Origin: Vitis vinifera
Taxonomy: Eukaryota > Streptophyta > Magnoliopsida > Vitales > Vitaceae
Direction: 5' to 3'
NCBI RefSeq assembly: GCF_030704535.1
Contig: NC_081815.1
Location: forward strand, 2,433,001-2,497,000
Length of the DNA stretch: 64,000 bases
The notes under the pieces were generated by a model, which was not told the origin of the DNA, searched no databases, and saw only the letters and a program-made list of their open reading frames with translations. Below are positions 14,640 through 64,000 of this stretch, piece after piece. Numbering within the stretch: position 1 is the first letter of the stretch; every line of letters starts with the position of its first letter. Made by a program: the position numbers and the translations under genes.

Positions 14640-15060
14640 TTTATAAATTTAAAAACACTGCAAATCAGAATCAATCTCAACAAAAAATGGTTTCCTTTTT
14701 TTTCTTTTTTTCTAATAAATTTATGGTTAAGAATGTTTTTGAAAACAATCTTTTATTCTTTAAAACAAAAAATACATAAAATATAATTTGTAACAAAAAA
14801 CCCTTTGATGTTTTATATGTTCTAAAGAAGAAAATATGGTGTTTTCAAATAACATCTTTTAATTATTTTATATTATTTTCACTTATTTTTTTAGAGTTAT
14901 TTTAATAAATAATTATATAAATATGTAAAATAATTAAAAATAAAATACTAAATATAAAAATTAATTTTAAAACATATTTAAAAATATTTTAGATTTTCAA
15001 ATAAATTTTTATTTTACAAAAATCAGATAACTGTTTTAAAAAACTGTTACCAAACATGTC
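14640..15060. repeat. Third copy of the AT-rich repeat seen at 785-1450
   Basis: Shares with the 785-1140 copy, in the same order, ATAACATCTTTTAATTATT, a CATATAG/AAATATGTAAAATAATTAAAAATAAA block, and terminal CAAATAAATTTTTATTTTA sequence. It ends CTGTTACCAAACATG, which is like the ends of other AT-rich elements in the window. It has no coding capacity. Confidence 0.5.
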
Positions 15061-16330
15061 CTTTATTTTTTTATTTTTTCCTAATTAGAAGTGGAGCATG
15101 TGGATGAAAGTGACAATGTATAACTTATCTTTCCTTTATTTTAGAAATGATAAATTTCATTAATGTTGGTGCATTCCAAGTCCTACATGATCTATCAAGT
15201 GCTACATTTATTTTATACATATAAGAAGAAGATGGACCATTAAAGAGGAATTTAATTTGGCTAGTTGGAGCATACTACAAACCTAAACTCAAATCCCATA
15301 ATTATAGCCAATAATTGACTGAAAAAAAATATTTAGTTTTCAATCTTAAGTATTATTTTCTAACATTTTTATTAAATTTAGGCCAATTTTATAAATTAAT
15401 GCATGATTAAAGTTTCATATTTAATCAAAGTCATACCATATTTTATCTTGAAGCAACCCGGAATAATAATTAATAGTAAGTCCAATTAAAATCTTATTCC
15501 CCAACAATTGTATATGGGGTCCATTTTGCATTATTTGTAACATAATTTAGAAGATAATATAAAAAAATGTGGAAATGTTTTAAATTAATTGTCATTCCTT
15601 GGAGATGGGTTAGAAGAATTAACAACAATTGACATTTTGTGGTAGCAACTTTAGACAGAATTAAAATGTGAAAAATCACCCAATGAGCATCACAACACAT
15701 ACAATAAAATTCACTTTTGGTTTAATTTATGGAGAAAGAGGATGCTCAAAAAAATTAAACTTTCCAAAAAGAAAGACTTCAATATGCTTATTGGGACGCG
15801 TGGCAGCACCCCAGATGAGTCAATAAAAAGAGCTTTACACACTTTTTATGAGGCGCTTTTTGCACAAGAGATTGTTTCTAGGGCAGCATTTGCCGAAAAG
15901 CTCAGCATAAGAGCACATGAGTAGTGAAAAGATATGCACATTGGGACAGCACATTTGTTGTTTACATGCTTGATTTGATTTTGGTGCCTTTAATTTTCCA
16001 TAAGCATGGGGCCTCCCCTTGATTTAAGGGTTAGTCAGTCAAATCTGCCCATTACGCTCAACTATTTTTGGTGAGCTTAGGAAAGAGGCTAGGGCTCTTT
16101 TGTTGTTGTTTGGATATGTTTGTTGAGGACCAAGCTTTCCCCTACTTTGACTTCAAACTCAGCTCCAAGCCTAGAACTTGTACTCTTTTGTGTTTAGTGT
16201 ATGTTTTAGTTGAGTAAGCTCGGATTATATATTAAGGGAAATCGTAATATTAAATAAAACAATATATTTAAAGGAATAATATTAAGTTAAGACGGTTGTA
16301 AGTTATATGATTCAGTTCTAATACCATTTA

Positions 16331-16972
16331 TTAGTCCTCGTAACAATTCAATTGAATCTATATCATTAAGCTCGGGTTTAATGGTTGGACTTATAAGCGC
16401 TTACATACCTTTCTCTAAAAAGTCGATTTTAAAGGGTGAATTGCACTTAATATGTGTGTGATAATTGGTTTCAGAGTAAACATCATGCAAAGAAGATCTC
16501 CATCCTAAAAAGAGCAGGTTGAGGAAGGGTTACTACCTAATTGTGAGCGAGATCCACGAAGTCATTTAGTCATAGGTTTCAAAAACATAATGGATTGTAA
16601 CAACCCAATTGAATCATACATCACTTTAGCGGTTAAACCTATAAGCATTTATTAGTCCTCATAACGATTCAGTTGAATCTATATCATTAAGCTCGAGTTT
16701 AATGGTTGGACTTATAAGCACTTACATACCTTTATCTTAAAAGTAGATTTTTAAGGGTGAATTGCACTCAATATGTGTGATAATTGGTTTAAGAGCAAAC
16801 ATCATGCAAAGAAGATCTCCATCCTAAAAAGAGTAGACTGAGGAAGGGTTACTACCTATGTGCGAGATCCACAAAGTCATTTAGTCATAGGTTTCAAAAA
16901 CATAATGGATTGTAACAACCCAATTGAATCATACATTGCTTTAGTAATTAAACCTATAAGCACTTGGATATC
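16331..16972 (+). repeat. Tandem duplication, period 321 bp, two copies
   Basis: Unit 1 starts TTAGTCCTCGTAACAATTCA at 16331 and unit 2 starts TTAGTCCTCATAACGATTCA at 16652. Long collinear stretches match with scattered substitutions and small indels, for example GGTGAATTGCAC, AACATCATGCAAAGAAGATC and AAAACATAATGGATTGTAAC in both. Unit 2 loses similarity around 16965-16975. The sequence just before unit 1 (TTCTAATACCATTTA) resembles the reverse complement of a Copia primer-binding site, so the unit may derive from an LTR retroelement. This is inference. Confidence 0.8.
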
Positions 16973-48287: not shown

Positions 48288-48968
48288 TCACTTGTACTCA
48301 AAACTTGGCATCGGTGTAGGCGTGTCGAAGCTCTCCAAAATCTCCGTCTTGCTTCCACTATTCGCAGCCGGTTCTTGCTTCTTTCCCCCGCCAAACAACC
48401 CTCCAAACCACGAACTTGAACCAGAAGAAGGCTCCGGCGCCGGCGGCGCAGGCGGCGTCATGCCAGGTAACTGACCCATCGGATATCCGGATACGGGACC
48501 GGGAGTCATGCCGGGCACGGGCTCTTCCATCGTCATTGGAAGATTTTGAGGAGCGCTCAGGACCTTGTTCAGCATGATCCCAGCTCCCTCAATGAGACCC
48601 AAGAGTACGCCGCCGAAGATGGCCGATCGAGTGGAAGCGGCTAATCCCTGACGCATCTGGAGGAACCCGCCGGTCGCGGCACCAGCGATGATAGAATTCC
48701 AGGGATCCTCCTTCTGGCGGACGTAGACCATGGTGCAATCAAAGGCGGAGAAGAGGCCTCCCCAGACGGCGAAGCTGCCACCAACCCGCGGCGCGTTCAT
48801 CCTCACGGCTTGGGAGCCGCCGATGACGCGCTCGCCCTTAGGGGAGTTGTAGATGCCCTTGAGGAAGTGGAAAGCCGAGCCGCCGACCGCGCCCATGCCA
48901 AAGGCGCCGCCGACATCGTCGAGGATCCGATCGGGACAGGGTTCCCTGGACGTTTCCGGAGTGCCCAT
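48288..48968 (-). CDS. TIM17: Mitochondrial inner-membrane import translocase subunit TIM17
   Basis: The channel-forming partner of TIM23 that moves presequence proteins across the inner mitochondrial membrane. It has 226 residues and no introns. Residues 8-135 are the Tim17/Tim22/Tim23 domain: REPCPDRILDDVGGAFGMG at the intermembrane-space end, GG-rich membrane segments, and a complete PRAT motif (G70..F73, ten residues, R84, three, D88, six, A95-G96, three, G100). After about residue 140 comes a plant-specific Pro/Gly/Met-rich tail ending in SSSWFGGLFGGGKKQE and a short acidic end, as in Arabidopsis TIM17-1/-2. The start is supported by the conserved N-terminus and by telo-box and TGGGC elements just upstream. 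Confidence 0.95.
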   Translation of the reverse strand: MGTPETSREPCPDRILDDVGGAFGMGAVGGSAFHFLKGIYNSPKGERVIGGSQAVRMNAPRVGGSFAVWGGLFSAFDCTMVYVRQKEDPWNSIIAGAATGGFLQMRQGLAASTRSAIFGGVLLGLIEGAGIMLNKVLSAPQNLPMTMEEPVPGMTPGPVSGYPMGQLPGMTPPAPPAPEPSSGSSSWFGGLFGGGKKQEPAANSGSKTEILESFDTPTPMPSFEYK

Positions 48969-49023: not shown

Positions 49024-49194
49024 TGGGGTTAATCGAGAGAGTGAGAGCGTTATAGAGAGAGAATCGGTTGTCTTGGAGGAGGGGTAGACTCGGTAAGTGT
49101 TATAAACTATTCCTTTGATTTGTAGAATAAACATGATATTCTCAAATCATTTTAGGGTTTAATCCACATAATTCTTAAATTGTGATTTTATACC

Positions 49195-49290
49195 TAGAGT
49201 GTTTTTAATAATGATTTTAAAAAGAGTTTTTAATATTTTTAATACTTGAAAAATAAAAAATTTTAAGTGGACTCTTAATCTTTGTAGATA
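49195..49290. repeat. Copy of the hairpin element seen at 62455-62537
   Basis: AAAAAGAGTTTTTAATATTTTTAATACTTGAAAAATAAAAAATTT-like sequence closely follows the left arm and loop of the 62455 hairpin, with a weaker right arm (AAGTGGACTCTTAATC). It is probably a decayed member of the same MITE family. Confidence 0.5.
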
Positions 49291-49411
49291 CCATTTGGAT
49301 TTTTAATAATTTTTTTAGTTATTCATAAAATGAAGAAAGTGAAAAATAAATATGTAGATATTATTTGCATATTTTCATAATAATAAAAAATTAATATTTT
49401 TCATATAATAT

Positions 49412-50700
49412 TGTTAGTAATTTGAGGCTAATCCAACTTATGATAATCACCCTATAGGGGGGTAAATAGGGTGATGGTCTCTTTTTCACAAATTTAAACT
49501 ATGCAAAAATAAGAGACAATTATATGCAAATATATAATAAACAAAATAAACACAATTACATATAATTTAAAAGAGTTAGGGAATAGAGAGTGCAAACACG
49601 AGAGTTTATAGTGGTTCGGCACTTCCTTGCCTACGTCTACTCTCCTCAACCTCCTAACCAAGTGAGGGTTCCACTATCTTGAAGCTTCAACCAAGCTTTC
49701 AATCTCTTTACAATTAGATTATGGTTCCAATTCACCGTCTTGGACTTTTGGCTCCAAGCATCCTTTACACTTCTTCAGGAGATATCCCTCTCTTGAATAA
49801 CCTCTCAAGTGATACCCCTCACTTGAGAAAATTCCTTTCAAAGATTTACAAATAAAATGATCTCTCAAAAATCCTAGCACAGGAACTTTAAGCTCAAATG
49901 ATACAAGAGAAACTAGGATTGAATGGTGCACTAAAGATATGCAAGTTTTTGAATAATGGTGCACTAAAAAATACTATTCCAAGGCTCAAATATAATCAAG
50001 AAGGATTTGGGAAGGTTAAGCTCATGAAACAATGAAGATTGGAGTCTTTTTATAGAAGAGAAAAATCAAACTAGCCGTTTGGGGGTTTGTCCGGTCGAGC
50101 TAGGGGTCGACCGATTGACTAGCCGTTAGCATTAAATGTTGGTAGGTGACCGTTGGGCCTCGACCGGACCTCAACCGGTTGAGGTTCAACCTTGACCGAG
50201 AAGAGGAGGCCATTGGGAGAGAGAAGGTTTTTGGCCTCCCTCAACCGGTCCTTGATCGGACGAGCATAACCGGTCGACCGGTTGAATAGGTTGAGCCATT
50301 CTTTTGGCTCAACACTCAACATTTTTCAACTTAAAACCTTTTAACACAAGTTTGAAAATTATTTAACAAAAGGTTTTAGTTGAAAACATGAAATCATCCA
50401 ATTTTAAAGATATTTAAAACAAAATAACTCTTGGATGATTTTGGTGCATAAGTAAAGAAAATAATGCATGAAAGTCCTAGTGCACCAACAACCTTACAAA
50501 GAGATCTTAAGAAGTTTTGGTCTTGAAAAACTCTTCTCTTTGAGGTGGTCTTCTTCTTCATGATTTCTCCTTGACTTGATTTGTCTTTGGATTGCCACTT
50601 TAGAAGTTGTCTTGCCTAATCACACTTGAAATATGATCATTAGTTCTAAACGTTATTTTGTTATCATCAAAATCAATACTAACCAAACCTTAGTTTCACA
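49412..50700 (-). mobile_element. Solo-LTR-like element A (minus orientation)
   Basis: A 1289-bp element starting TGTTAGTAATTTGAGG and ending TTTCACA (TG...CA ends), flanked by the 5-bp direct repeat AATAT (49407-49411 and 50701-50705). Read on the minus strand it carries a TATAAAAA box (50047-50054) downstream of a CCGGTTGA/GGTCGA-rich segment, as expected of a U3 promoter region. No coding sequence or internal domain is present. It is the inverted counterpart of element B. Confidence 0.88.
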
Positions 50701-50809
50701 AATATGATATATAAATCATTTTTAATTCTAACATACCATAAAAAACAAATATGTAAATATTATTTATATATTTTTATAATAAAAAATAATAATATTTTGC
50801 ATATGATAT

Positions 50810-52096
50810 TGTGAAACCAAGGTTTGGTTAATTTTGATTTTGATGATAACAAAACAAGGTTTAGAACTCATGATCATATTTCAAGTGTGATTAGGTAAGA
50901 CGACTTCCAAAGTGGTAATCCAAAGACAAATCAAACTAAGGAGAAATCATGAAAAAGAAGACCACCTCAAAGAGAAGAGTTTTTCAAGACCAAAGCTTCT
51001 TAAGATCTCTTTGTAAGGTTGTTGGTGCACTAAGACTTTCATGCATTTCATTCTTTATTTATGCACCAAAATCATCCAAGAGTAATATTGTTTTAAATAT
51101 CTTTAAAATTGGATGATTTCATGTTTTCAACTAAAACCTTGTGTTAAATAATTTTCAAACTTGTGTTAAAAGGTTTTAAGTTGAAAAATGTTGGGTATTG
51201 AGCCAAAAAATGGCTCAACCGGTTCAATCGGTTGAGGAATCGGTCAACCGGTTGTGCTCGTCTGGTCGAGGGAGGCCAAAAGTTTCTCTCTCTCCCAGTG
51301 GCCTTCTCTTCCCGATCGAGGTAACTCTCTTCCCGGTCGAGGTCCGGTTGAGGCTCAACGGTCATCTGCCAAGCATTTAATGCTAACGGCTAGTCAACCG
51401 GTCAACTCCTAGCTCGACCGGTCGAACCCCCAACGACTAGTCTGACTTTTTTCTTCTATAAAAAGGCTTCAATTTTCATTGTTTTATAAGCTTAACCTTC
51501 CCAAATCATTCTTGAATATATTTGAGTCTTGGAAGAGTGTTTTTGAGTGCACCATTGTTTCATAACTTGCATATTTTTAGTACACCATTCAATCCTAGTT
51601 TTTCTTGTATCTTTGAGTCTAAAGTTCTATTACTAGGATTTTTGTGAGATCAATCTTTGTATATCTTTGAGAGGAATTTTCTCAAGTGAGGGGTATCACT
51701 TGAGAGGTTGTTCAAGAGTGGGATAACTCTTAAGAAGTGTAAAGGGTGCTTGGAGCCAAAAGTCCAAGAGAGTGAATTGGAACCATAATCCAATTGTAAA
51801 GAGATTGGAAGCTTCATTGAAGCTTCAAGATAGTGGAACCCTCACTCGGTTAGGAGGTTGAGGAGAGTGGACATAGGCAAGGAAGTGTCGAACCACTATA
51901 AACTCCCGTGTTTGCACTCTCTCTTCCCTAACTCTTTTAAATTATATGCAATTGTATTTATTTTGTTTATTATATATTGCATATAATTGTCTCTTATTTT
52001 TACATAGTTTAAATTTGTGAAAAAGAGACCATCACCCTATTTACCTCCCCCTCTAGGGTGATTACCATAATTTGGATTAGCCTCAAATTCCTAACA
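50810..52096 (+). mobile_element. Solo-LTR-like element B (plus orientation)
   Basis: A 1287-bp element starting TGTGAAACCAAGG and ending CCTCAAATTCCTAACA, flanked by the 5-bp direct repeat GATAT (50805-50809 and 52097-52101). It is closely similar to the reverse complement of element A over its whole length, with scattered substitutions. TATAAAAA is at 51457-51464. Repeated ACCGG/CGACCGG words lie upstream of the TATA box. The length, TG...CA ends and 5-bp duplications fit a solo LTR left by recombination. The retroelement superfamily cannot be assigned without an internal region. Confidence 0.88.
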
Positions 52097-52779
52097 GATA
52101 TGATATGATATACAAATAATTTATAATTCCATTGCATAACTAGAAGTTATATATAAAAATTTTATCTGTAATTATATAGCTAAAAGCTATCTCAAGCTAT
52201 TATCTTATATATTTCATATAAAAAAAAATTATGACTTATAGTTTGAAGCTTTATAAATTTTATATATTTTCATTATCATAAGTTATGCAGAATTTATGTG
52301 AAATAATTTTTTTTAATACATGTATATATTATATTTATTAGTCGTGTGTTTATAATATCAAGTAGATTTATTTCTAATATATTTATCTCATATATTCCAC
52401 AACATATTATCACATGATGCTTCAAATGACCCTCCTCATGGGCTTATATAGGAGATGAAAAACTTCTAAAGACTCTTTGGAGACATCTACACTTAGCTAC
52501 AAAGTGGAAGAGTATGGAAGTTTCTAGAGGAGGGTTAGAGATATGGGGTATTCTAAAATCTTTCAAAATCATCTTGTACATAGACTAGTGTAGAGGATTC
52601 TAAATTATTATTGAGTTGTAAGGAATCCTCCAAGGTTTCAGAGAGTTCCATTGGTGCCTATAATTAGGTTAAGACTTCATTTGGTCAATATACCTCCCTA
52701 AAACCACCCAATAACCTAACTGATTACTACTTAAAAAGAGCATATTTTAGATAATAATTCTCATGAGTTTCATGTCTTT

Positions 52780-54763: not shown

Positions 54764-55380
54764 TAAGTCTGTGACAATATGTACTAGTTGATGTTAATAT
54801 ATATCGAGTAAGCTTGACTATGAACTCCTAAAGGGATAAAATTATGTTAGTAATGACATAAAATTTCATGTAAATGATACTTTACATTTGATCAAATTCA
54901 AAAGAATCTGATATGACCAACATGGTCCCGAGGTAAATAATAATGCATCAACTAATTACAAGTCATGCAGATATATTATAAAACTAGAAGTTTTTATTTA
55001 GTGATTTGTTTATCTATACTTTTAAAGGGTAGTATGACATGTTTTGGAAATTATTATTTCAATGAGATAAATTTTCTCACCATTAAGAGGAAGAAGCTGG
55101 TTTTAGAAGAACAATGTGAGAATTCTTAGAATTTTTTTTTATACAAGTGTTAATATCGATGAAGAATAATTAACTAACATCATAGTATATATACACATGA
55201 AGCATAGTAAAATAATTGAAGCAAACATTAATATTAGCTATTATAACTACAAATGAATGCCACAATCACTTGCAACATAGTTTGTCGGTTCAAATGATGT
55301 AATTTCTTGGAAAAGAAAAACACAATATACATGAAAAATGGGCTACAAAATGATTTACCAGTTCAAAATTAAGGAACTTA

Positions 55381-55530
55381 TAGCCCTTAAAGAGGCAACC
55401 ATGGAATAAATAACCCTTGAAGAGATAATTATTGAATAAAGAGCCCTTGAAGAGAGACATATTAAATTAATAGTCCTTAAAGAGACATATATTGAATAAA
55501 TACCCCCTAAAGAGTTATAGATTGAATGAA
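55381..55530 (+). repeat. Minisatellite, five units of exactly 30 bp
   Basis: Five consecutive 30-bp units share the consensus TA.CCCTTAAAGAG followed by an AT-rich part ending ATTGAATAAA. Units start at 55381, 55411, 55441, 55471 and 55501; they differ by substitutions only, with no length change. Confidence 0.9.
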
Positions 55531-57060
55531 TAGGTATGAATATCTACATACCTAAAAGTAAAAGTAACATATATTTGTTATAAACATGATAAGAGAAGGA
55601 TGATAATAAAATAATGTTGTCATTAATAATGCATTTGTCTTATTTTCAAACGGTCTTTGACATAATGAGAAATGATAAAGATTCCAAATAATGAATCATG
55701 GAAGAATGTTGACATAAAAAAAAAAAAGTGACCCAAATGGAAGATGCTATACAAACAAGTTGGACCGGTCGACCAAATAGGAGTATTTAGACTTGTAGTC
55801 TATAAGACATCAAACTTGTTGAATGTAAATGAACTTGAAGTCTAGTGTATAAAGACAAAAAAGTATTTGATATCAATGAGTTATTATACAAAAGTGTATT
55901 TAAGATAAATTATAGCATAAGGTTTCTACAAGAAACCTTGTATCAACCCTTTTAATGGCTTAATCATAGTTCTAACTATCAAAATTGATTGTTCCTAAAT
56001 GACTTAATATGTATTATATAATGCATATAGATTCATAAATATGTTAAAATCCAGAAAGATTCAAAATGCATGAAACAATCAAATCCCTAAGTAATTAACA
56101 TGCTTGAAGCAAATAATTTCCCATAAGGATTAATATCTCATAACATATTTAAAATAATGTTACGTAATATATTTGATTGAGCTACGTTCTTGTATGTATT
56201 AAAATGGAGGTTTATAATTATTATAATTTTATTGGAACTCTTGAAGAGTGTATAAGAGTGGTTAATTATCTAATGAAATATTTTGAAAAATCAAAATGTT
56301 GTCTTGATTTGTAAATCAAACACTTTCCAAATAAAATGTTAATCAATCAATTAACACAGAAAGTCCTGAAACATTTTCAAACAAATCACATCCATTAAAA
56401 CGCAGTTCATTCACTAAAGTGAAAAAAGACTTCTTTCATCCTAAAAAAGATAACAAAAAACTACTTAGTAAAAAAGTACCTTTATTTCAATGTCATTCGT
56501 GCACTAATGTATGTTGTAGATTATATTCATACAAGTTTTGTCTCACTAAGTTTTACAGACAAAATTTTTAACGAGGGAATCGTAGTAGTTCAAAAGAACA
56601 TTATATTATTTTTTCTTCATTAGGATTTTTTTCCATAGAGTTTTTCATAGTAATGTTGTAACGATACATATTCTTATAATCATCCGATGAGGAGTATTAT
56701 AAAATATGAGAATTTATTGAATTATGAGAATTTGTTGATGATCATAAACAAATTTTTTTGGTGACTCTTTGTTAAAAAAAGAAACGTCTAATAAAATATT
56801 GATTCAACTTATTTCATAGTATCCTTTTTTTTTTTTAAACATTCATATTCATTTTTTTCTTCTTCTCATTTTTTAATTTTACAAAATAAAAATAAAAATT
56901 ATAAGAATAGTTTATCTTGCAAGTTTAGTTATTTCAATACCTTATGAAATAATTGAATTTTAGGGATATACCATAAAAAAAAAATTAAAGAAAAGCAAAT
57001 ATAGTTTTTGCCATTTTTATTTTAATTTGAAAAAAAATATAAAGACAGTTTTCATTGTGA
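55531..57060. other. AT-rich intergenic DNA upstream of the SpoU methyltransferase
   Basis: No gene or clear repeat. Near 57069-57082 AAACGACGTCGT, a palindromic ACGT-core element, lies about 60 bp before the short upstream ORF and is a candidate promoter element. Confidence 0.5.
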
Positions 57061-62255: not shown

Positions 62256-62454
62256 TTAAATTAATTATTAATCTATTTAACAAGGGAGACATGCCGCCAA
62301 TTATGATCGGCTTCCATGCCCTCCACAACCATGATGATCAATGGCTCACTATTTTCATGGATTTATTCACTAATGCCACTTTTTTATATATTAAAACATA
62401 AGAGCGGGGAAATATCAAGATAGCATAGATGATTTAAAGTCTGTTTGGTAATAA

Positions 62455-62537
62455 TTTTAAAAAGCGTTTTTAATATTTTTAATACTTAAAATTTTTTATT
62501 ATTCAAGTGTTAAAAATGTTAAAAACGCTTTCTAAAA
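62455..62537. repeat. Hairpin with 33-bp arms (short MITE)
   Basis: The left arm 62455-62487 (TTTTAAAAAGCGTTTTTAAT...AATACTT) pairs with 62505-62537 (reverse complement TTTTAGAAAGCGTTTTTAAC...AACACTT) with only a few mismatches; the loop is 17 bp. A decayed copy at 49195-49290 shows that it belongs to a dispersed family. Confidence 0.8.
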
Positions 62538-64000
62538 CCACTTTCACACTCTTACTTTAATAATCTAATTATTATATTATTTTATTTAATCTAATTATTA
62601 TATTATTTTATTATTTAATAAAAATACATTGAGTGTTGTTTTTTAGGTGATAAAATGCTAAAAATATGAATGATTGAGTTTGTATTTGAAATTGAGTGTT
62701 TGGAAGTAGTTTTAAGAAAAAATAATGATAATTTTGAAAATTTTAAATCTAAATTCTTGTATTGTGCTCAATTAAAAAATTATTTTTTAAAAAAAATTAT
62801 ATAAAATAGAGATAAATTATATTGGATTATTTGTTTGATTGAAATGATAGTTAGTTTCCATATTGAATTATGAATAGATAGAAAAAAAAAGTTAATATTA
62901 TTTTCCATTTAAAATTGTATTTTAAATGTTTTTATTTTATTAAATAAGGATGGAGTCATGGAAAAACCAAATTTGGATATGATTTTGATTATTTATGACA
63001 CTTATCCTTATTCTATACACTTCCTATTTTCCATTTATAAACATATAAAATATTGATAATTTTTATATAAAATATAAAAATTTTCAAGAATTATTTTTTT
63101 TTTTTAAAAACGATAACTTTTAAAAATTTTAAATGGTAAAAAAATTTAAAATTTGAGGTATAATTTTTTTTTTTATTCATAAACTCTTTAAATAGCTTTT
63201 AAAAATCATTATCTTAAAAAGGTAGGTTTTAGTCTTATATAGAAATTATTATCATGAAATAAAGGGTATATCCAAAAGATAGATAATGTTTGAATATAAA
63301 TTCAAAGAAGTGTTTTAATAGTGGGTTTTAAATATATTATATGAAAAAAAAAGTTTTTTTTTTTTTGAAAATATTGTTTTTAAATTTTTTAAAAATGTTT
63401 TGAACATTTTAAAAAGCTGCTACAAATTAAAAATGTTTGAACGAGAATCATTTTCAAATAAATTTGAAGTCAAATTTAAAAGGTTTTTTTTTTAAATTGA
63501 AATTAAAATGTGTTAAATTATAATATTAAAAATTATCAAATTTGAATCAATTTTCAAATCAAATCAATCATTGTTACAATTAATTTTTTGAAAAGATGAG
63601 TCTAAAAAAATTTAAAAATGATTTTCAAATATCTATCAAAATAAGAGCTTCCAAGTATTTTTTAAAAGCATTTATAATGAAAGTTCTACTAAATTCTAAA
63701 ATTATTTTATCAAAATCATTTTTAGATGAAATCGAAGTCAAATTTTAGGAGATTTATATTTAAAAATGGAGTGGAAACGTGTGACGTGTGGAATCATAAT
63801 ATTAAAAATTATGAAAATCGAGTCAATATTCAAATCAAATCAAAGCTTGCTTGGGAAGGTTTGTGTTGTGTTTATAAATATATATGAAATTGAAACTCCT
63901 CCCTCTCATAATGGAAACAGAGGGGCGTGGGACCAGCAAAAAGTGAGGTGGAAGTAGCCCACCCCCAGCGCAGAAAGGAGCTGTAATCAAAAGCGACAGC

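Follow-up and report, generated by a model that had tools for sequence, protein, structure and literature searches.

The closest described systems come from grapevine itself and from Drosophila. The Vitis Sirevirus of Bousios et al. 2010 (PMC2829016) has an LTR of 1.24 kb, against a Sirevirus average of 1.28 kb. Its LTR has palindromic boxes with the consensus CGGTCGACCG (10 in the 3'LTR), clustered in a CpG-rich stretch of the upper half, and, shortly downstream of the boxes, a cTATAA-type box in the middle of the LTR. CGG-CCG palindromic boxes of this kind, clustered into a CpG-rich stretch upstream of the TATA box, are reported there in 13 of 21 Sireviruses. The grapevine row of MASiVEdb, if its columns are read rightly, gives 49 intact Sireviruses, a count in which solo LTRs are not included (PMC3414828).

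Two further cases resemble the arrangement that we describe here. At AMAT, a 499-bp Vitis TRIM/solo LTR is bordered by a 5-bp target duplication, and neighbouring LTRs in opposite orientation have already been published for Vitis in the same paper (PMC7166211). That LTR is, however, a different and shorter one, and the excerpted text of the paper does not describe a duplicated target unit. In the CG18446 promoter of Drosophila melanogaster, a cluster of roo solo LTRs shows that one family has inserted repeatedly in front of a gene, with differing target duplications and, at three sites, in opposite orientations at the same position (PMC6415491). Unlike the roo insertions, of which any strain in that account carries at most one, our two LTRs share one chromosome and a duplicated site. 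An inverted pair of solo LTRs in a duplicated target does not appear in the titles or abstract openings among the matches listed in our literature search, which was not a close one. The pair looks like a tidy natural example of LTRs that inserted repeatedly, and in both orientations, at a single site.

The window analysed here is a 64-kb stretch of Vitis vinifera DNA, in which elements A and B lie 109 bp apart (Table 1). Their lengths, strands, TG...CA ends and perfect target duplications, AATAT for A and GATAT for B, are confirmed in the sequence as the initial annotation had given them. Such ends with a 5-bp target duplication are a trait of solo LTRs, and an internal region is absent between or beside the two. 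A blastn search found no further copy of the LTR in the window, and the whole window gave no Rfam match at gathering thresholds. Relatives outside the window were sought with exact patterns, three in viral contigs and two in genome contigs, and there were no matches in these non-plant collections, from which records of the source genome, or of one very close to it, may be missing.

Table 1. Features of the inverted LTR pair and its surroundings (positions in the window).
Feature	Positions	Strand	Remark or basis
Element A, probable Sirevirus-type solo LTR	49412-50700	minus	1289 bp, TG...CA ends
Element B, probable Sirevirus-type solo LTR	50810-52096	plus	1287 bp, TG...CA ends
Target duplication of A, left copy AATAT	49407-49411	.	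sequence
Target duplication of A, right copy AATAT	50701-50705	.	sequence
Target duplication of B, left copy GATAT	50805-50809	.	end of left part of host copy 2
Target duplication of B, right copy GATAT	52097-52101	.	sequence
Host duplication copy 1, left part, ending in target duplication AATAT	49342-49411	+	60/69 identical to 50741-50809
Host duplication copy 1, right part	50706-50740	+	measured similarity 50702-50728; outer limit not sharp
Host duplication copy 2, left part, ending in target duplication GATAT	50741-50809	+	alignment to 49342-49411
Host duplication copy 2, right part, starting with further GATAT units	52102-52129	+	alignment to 50702-50728
Mid-LTR box of A, first base of TATAAA	50054	-	LTR position 647, reads leftwards to Tim17-family gene
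Mid-LTR box of B, first base of TATAAA	51457	+	LTR position 648, reads rightwards
Tim17/22/23-family gene	48288-48968	-	Pfam PF02466, E 1.4e-31

Judged from the features of the LTRs alone, A and B are most likely Sirevirus-type (Ty1/copia) LTRs. Both have the length of about 1.2-1.3 kb and the mid-LTR cTATAA-type box of Sireviruses, here within cTATAAAAAG, although length by itself does not identify one. Each LTR has a second TATAAA, at LTR position 1091 in A and 1088 in B. Both also carry a cluster of CGG-CCG palindromic boxes at LTR positions 403 to 619, shortly before the mid-LTR TATA box. The cluster lies in a CpG-rich stretch, with a CpG observed/expected ratio of 0.93-1.17 in two 200-bp windows (401-600 and 501-700). 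Allowing at most two mismatches, we count three CGGTCGACCG boxes in each LTR; 300 mononucleotide shuffles per LTR gave means of 0.07 for A and 0.16 for B with maxima of 2, and the remaining 61,315 bases of the window hold three. With at most one mismatch there are two boxes in A and one in B, the latter also reached by a shuffle. At up to three mismatches the counts rise to six in A and nine in B, and the shuffle maximum is six for each, so that this looser count is not distinctive for A. The poly(A)-signal forms AATAAA, AATAAT and ATTAAA have a single match per LTR; it is at position 338, ahead of the mid-LTR TATA box, and neither LTR has one downstream of that box.

The two LTRs resemble the Vitis Sirevirus (PMC2829016) in length (about 1.24-1.29 kb across both), in their palindromic boxes clustered in a CpG-rich stretch of the upper half, and in the position of the TATA box shortly behind the boxes. 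In contrast to that element, the boxes of A and B are fewer and degenerate, and only LTRs are present here; the likeness is one of described features. The Sirevirus polypurine tract AGGGGGAG, the AT/TG attachment site and the tRNA-Met binding site adjoin the LTR on the side of the internal region, which A and B lack, as they lack the region that would carry the reverse transcriptase and gag. Nine of the ten grapevine Ty1/copia families of PMC2576258 were rejected as sources, their LTRs of 147-373 bp being too short; the tenth, Brand, lies outside that range.

The initial annotation had placed the two LTRs at matching positions of a small tandem duplication of host DNA, and the flanks bear this out. 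The left flanks are identical at 60 of 69 ungapped positions with one 1-base gap, and none of 1000 shuffles aligned as well. Their local score is 88. Two rounds of 1000 dinucleotide shuffles reached at most 50 and 51, and 319 overlapping 200-bp pieces from other parts of the window, each with an AT content of 78% or more, reached at most 47. Likewise claimed to be alike, the flanks on the right (50702-50728 and 52103-52129) agree at 24 of 27 positions, the first four of which belong to the right target copy of A; the score of 39 was reached in none of 1000 shuffles (maximum 33). When longer right flanks were aligned, a different alignment was chosen, with a score of 42 that 25 of 1000 shuffles equalled.

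For the joined flanks, from which the LTRs and one copy of each target duplication had been taken out, TRF gives a period of 105, 1.9 copies and 82% matches, so that the host duplication is an AT-rich, direct tandem one of about 105 bp. If the alignment is anchored on the left, the insertion points of A and B have zero offset, and their target duplications (CATATAATAT, CATATGATAT) correspond base for base. With a right-hand anchor the offset is 5 bp, because copy 2 holds one extra ATATG unit. A third copy of the host unit farther to the right (TRF 2.8 copies, 67%) was rejected as too weak in AT-rich DNA.

We aligned A with the reverse complement of B and found 1155 of 1271 ungapped columns identical (90.9%), with 34 gap columns, 82 transitions and 34 transversions (K2P 0.098). 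Near-equal inverted arms (1289 and 1287 bp) of this identity, so closely spaced, are what the two ends of a single long-inverted-repeat (fold-back) element spanning A, spacer and B would look like. AATAT and GATAT, the outer 5-mers, share four of five bases, and the spacer is partly self-complementary (9 of 1000 shuffles as good), an observation on which we do not build. Yet each arm has the complete layout of an LTR and its own perfect target duplication, the outer 5-mers differ, and the spacer is a direct repeat of host DNA that lies beyond the arms. We therefore regard a fold-back element as almost certainly the wrong reading.

When the LTR is divided into tenths, the identity of A and B is uneven and ranges from 81% to 98% (chi-square p 0.0001), with the minimum around the repeated boxes and the ends more alike than the middle. 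We read the low identity around the boxes as fast change of the boxes; partial conversion of the LTR ends may be another source of the unevenness. The longest identical run is 53 bases, a length reached by 2585 of 5000 permutations and thus within chance, on which ground a long recent gene conversion tract between A and B was discarded. A divergence of 9.1% with no identical run above chance is as expected for different members of a family.

Gene conversion or inversion of an LTR had been proposed by the initial annotation, and these comparisons speak against it. Under such an origin, one insertion would have been duplicated in tandem with its flanks, and one LTR then inverted or replaced by conversion; the coincidence of the sites would disappear, and the greater likeness of the LTR ends would fit. 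A tandem duplication, however, preserves orientation and would leave both LTRs facing one way. The one base that distinguishes AATAT from GATAT does so in left and right target copies alike, and 9% divergence comes without unusually long identical runs. Compared as inverted repeats, the outer flanks do no better than chance (equalled by 491 of 1000 shuffles). The orientation and the outer flanks argue against both inversion and a fold-back element, and we consider a single duplicated insertion very improbable.

Each LTR has its own target duplication, which matches the local host copy, and two integrations are thus the simplest reading. We consider it likely that two independent Sirevirus-type insertions took place in opposite orientations at homologous sites of a pre-existing duplication, and that each later became a solo LTR. 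Recombination between the two LTRs of an element is the usual route from a full element to a solo LTR. In this course of events, the AT-rich tandem duplication of about 105 bp would have existed first, full Sirevirus-type elements would have integrated separately at its homologous AT-rich positions, and each would then have been reduced by recombination between its own LTRs. Seen directly in the sequence are the complete LTR-like ends, a perfect target duplication for each LTR, and host DNA duplicated in direct orientation on either side. The coincidence of the sites would count against independent insertions: if sites were random, two insertions at the same base of a 105-bp unit would be expected in about 1 of 100 cases, and within 5 bp in 1 of 10. 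Where LTR copies are numerous in a genome, close pairs from the same family should not be uncommon.

The host copies are identical at 84 of the 96 homologous positions to which the count was restricted, and the LTRs at 1155 of 1271 (Fisher p 0.27). As this difference is not significant, a duplication that came first is unproved and the order of events is one that we infer. These figures are also compatible with an allelic origin, in which LTRs inserted at the same site on two haplotypes were brought together when the right flank of one LTR exchanged unequally with the left flank of its counterpart, an event that would also have created the 105-bp duplication. That origin would account for the two LTRs at the same point of the unit, and same-site roo solo LTRs of opposite orientation on different chromosomes are published (PMC6415491). 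Two insertions at one site would still be required, however, and differences at 12 of 96 positions are many for alleles unless the event is old, so that we rate an exchange between alleles as quite improbable. Two independent insertions into an existing duplication remain our preferred account, and the locus is a neat yet in essence ordinary episode in the history of the genome.

A strong target preference had been suggested as the reason for the shared position. This is only a possibility; it rests on one coincidence, and one pair cannot establish it. The sites are AT-rich yet not clearly palindromic. Among six position pairs placed symmetrically about the 5-bp duplication, one is complementary for A and none for B (local mean 2.11); among twelve pairs, five are complementary for A and two for B (local mean 4.33), counts that 44.5% and 94.6% of local positions reach. 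A palindromic target like that of Tos17, as cited in PMC6911290, was rejected on these counts. Plant LTR elements are reported there to have a weak preference for palindromes, the Sire group being among the significant ones; given the symmetry counts, this weak preference does not explain the shared site. In the ten canonical grapevine elements of PMC2576258, target duplications are described as lacking conservation except for a predominance of A-rich ones. Conceivably, though we think it unlikely, the integrase of this Sirevirus lineage recognises local sequence or DNA shape, such as an ATATG or AT-rich tract, with enough strength to have chosen the same base twice, in opposite orientations, in both copies of the host duplication. 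If so, other ATATG tracts in the genome should be hotspots. The locus is a candidate for testing the local target preference of a Sirevirus.

The pair is most likely a relic in function. Nevertheless, a 2.7-kb inverted repeat lies beside a Tim17-family gene and places a putative Sirevirus-type promoter upstream of it in the matching direction: 443 bp separate the start codon of the gene from the end of A, and transcription from A would proceed on the same strand as the gene. If anything were active, A could serve as an upstream promoter or enhancer of the gene, and transcription from B could run off rightwards. The idea that the near-palindrome gives rise to hairpin RNA and 24-nt siRNAs is weakened by the promoters themselves. 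The mid-LTR TATA boxes of A and B diverge (Table 1), and the second TATAAA of each LTR faces the same way as the first, so that a transcript started in one LTR would not cross the other arm; hairpin RNA from both arms would need read-through from outside. Just upstream of the gene, a sequence resembling a splice donor, GGTAAGT, was noticed by eye on the plus strand at 49092-49098, and a divergent transcript running from this point could extend into A and B.

Other repeats occur in the window. A near-palindrome at about 62435-62540 is possibly a small fold-back or MITE, and a related part copy at 49195-49268 ends about 140 bp to the left of A. A direct tandem duplication (16325-16650 and 16646-16965) is 91% identical over 326 bp, and the neighbouring copies of a dispersed repeat at 805-1094 and 1148-1400 are 70-73% related to 14732-15048. 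A tandem array at 55380-55533 consists of 5.1 copies of a 30-bp unit with 76% matches.
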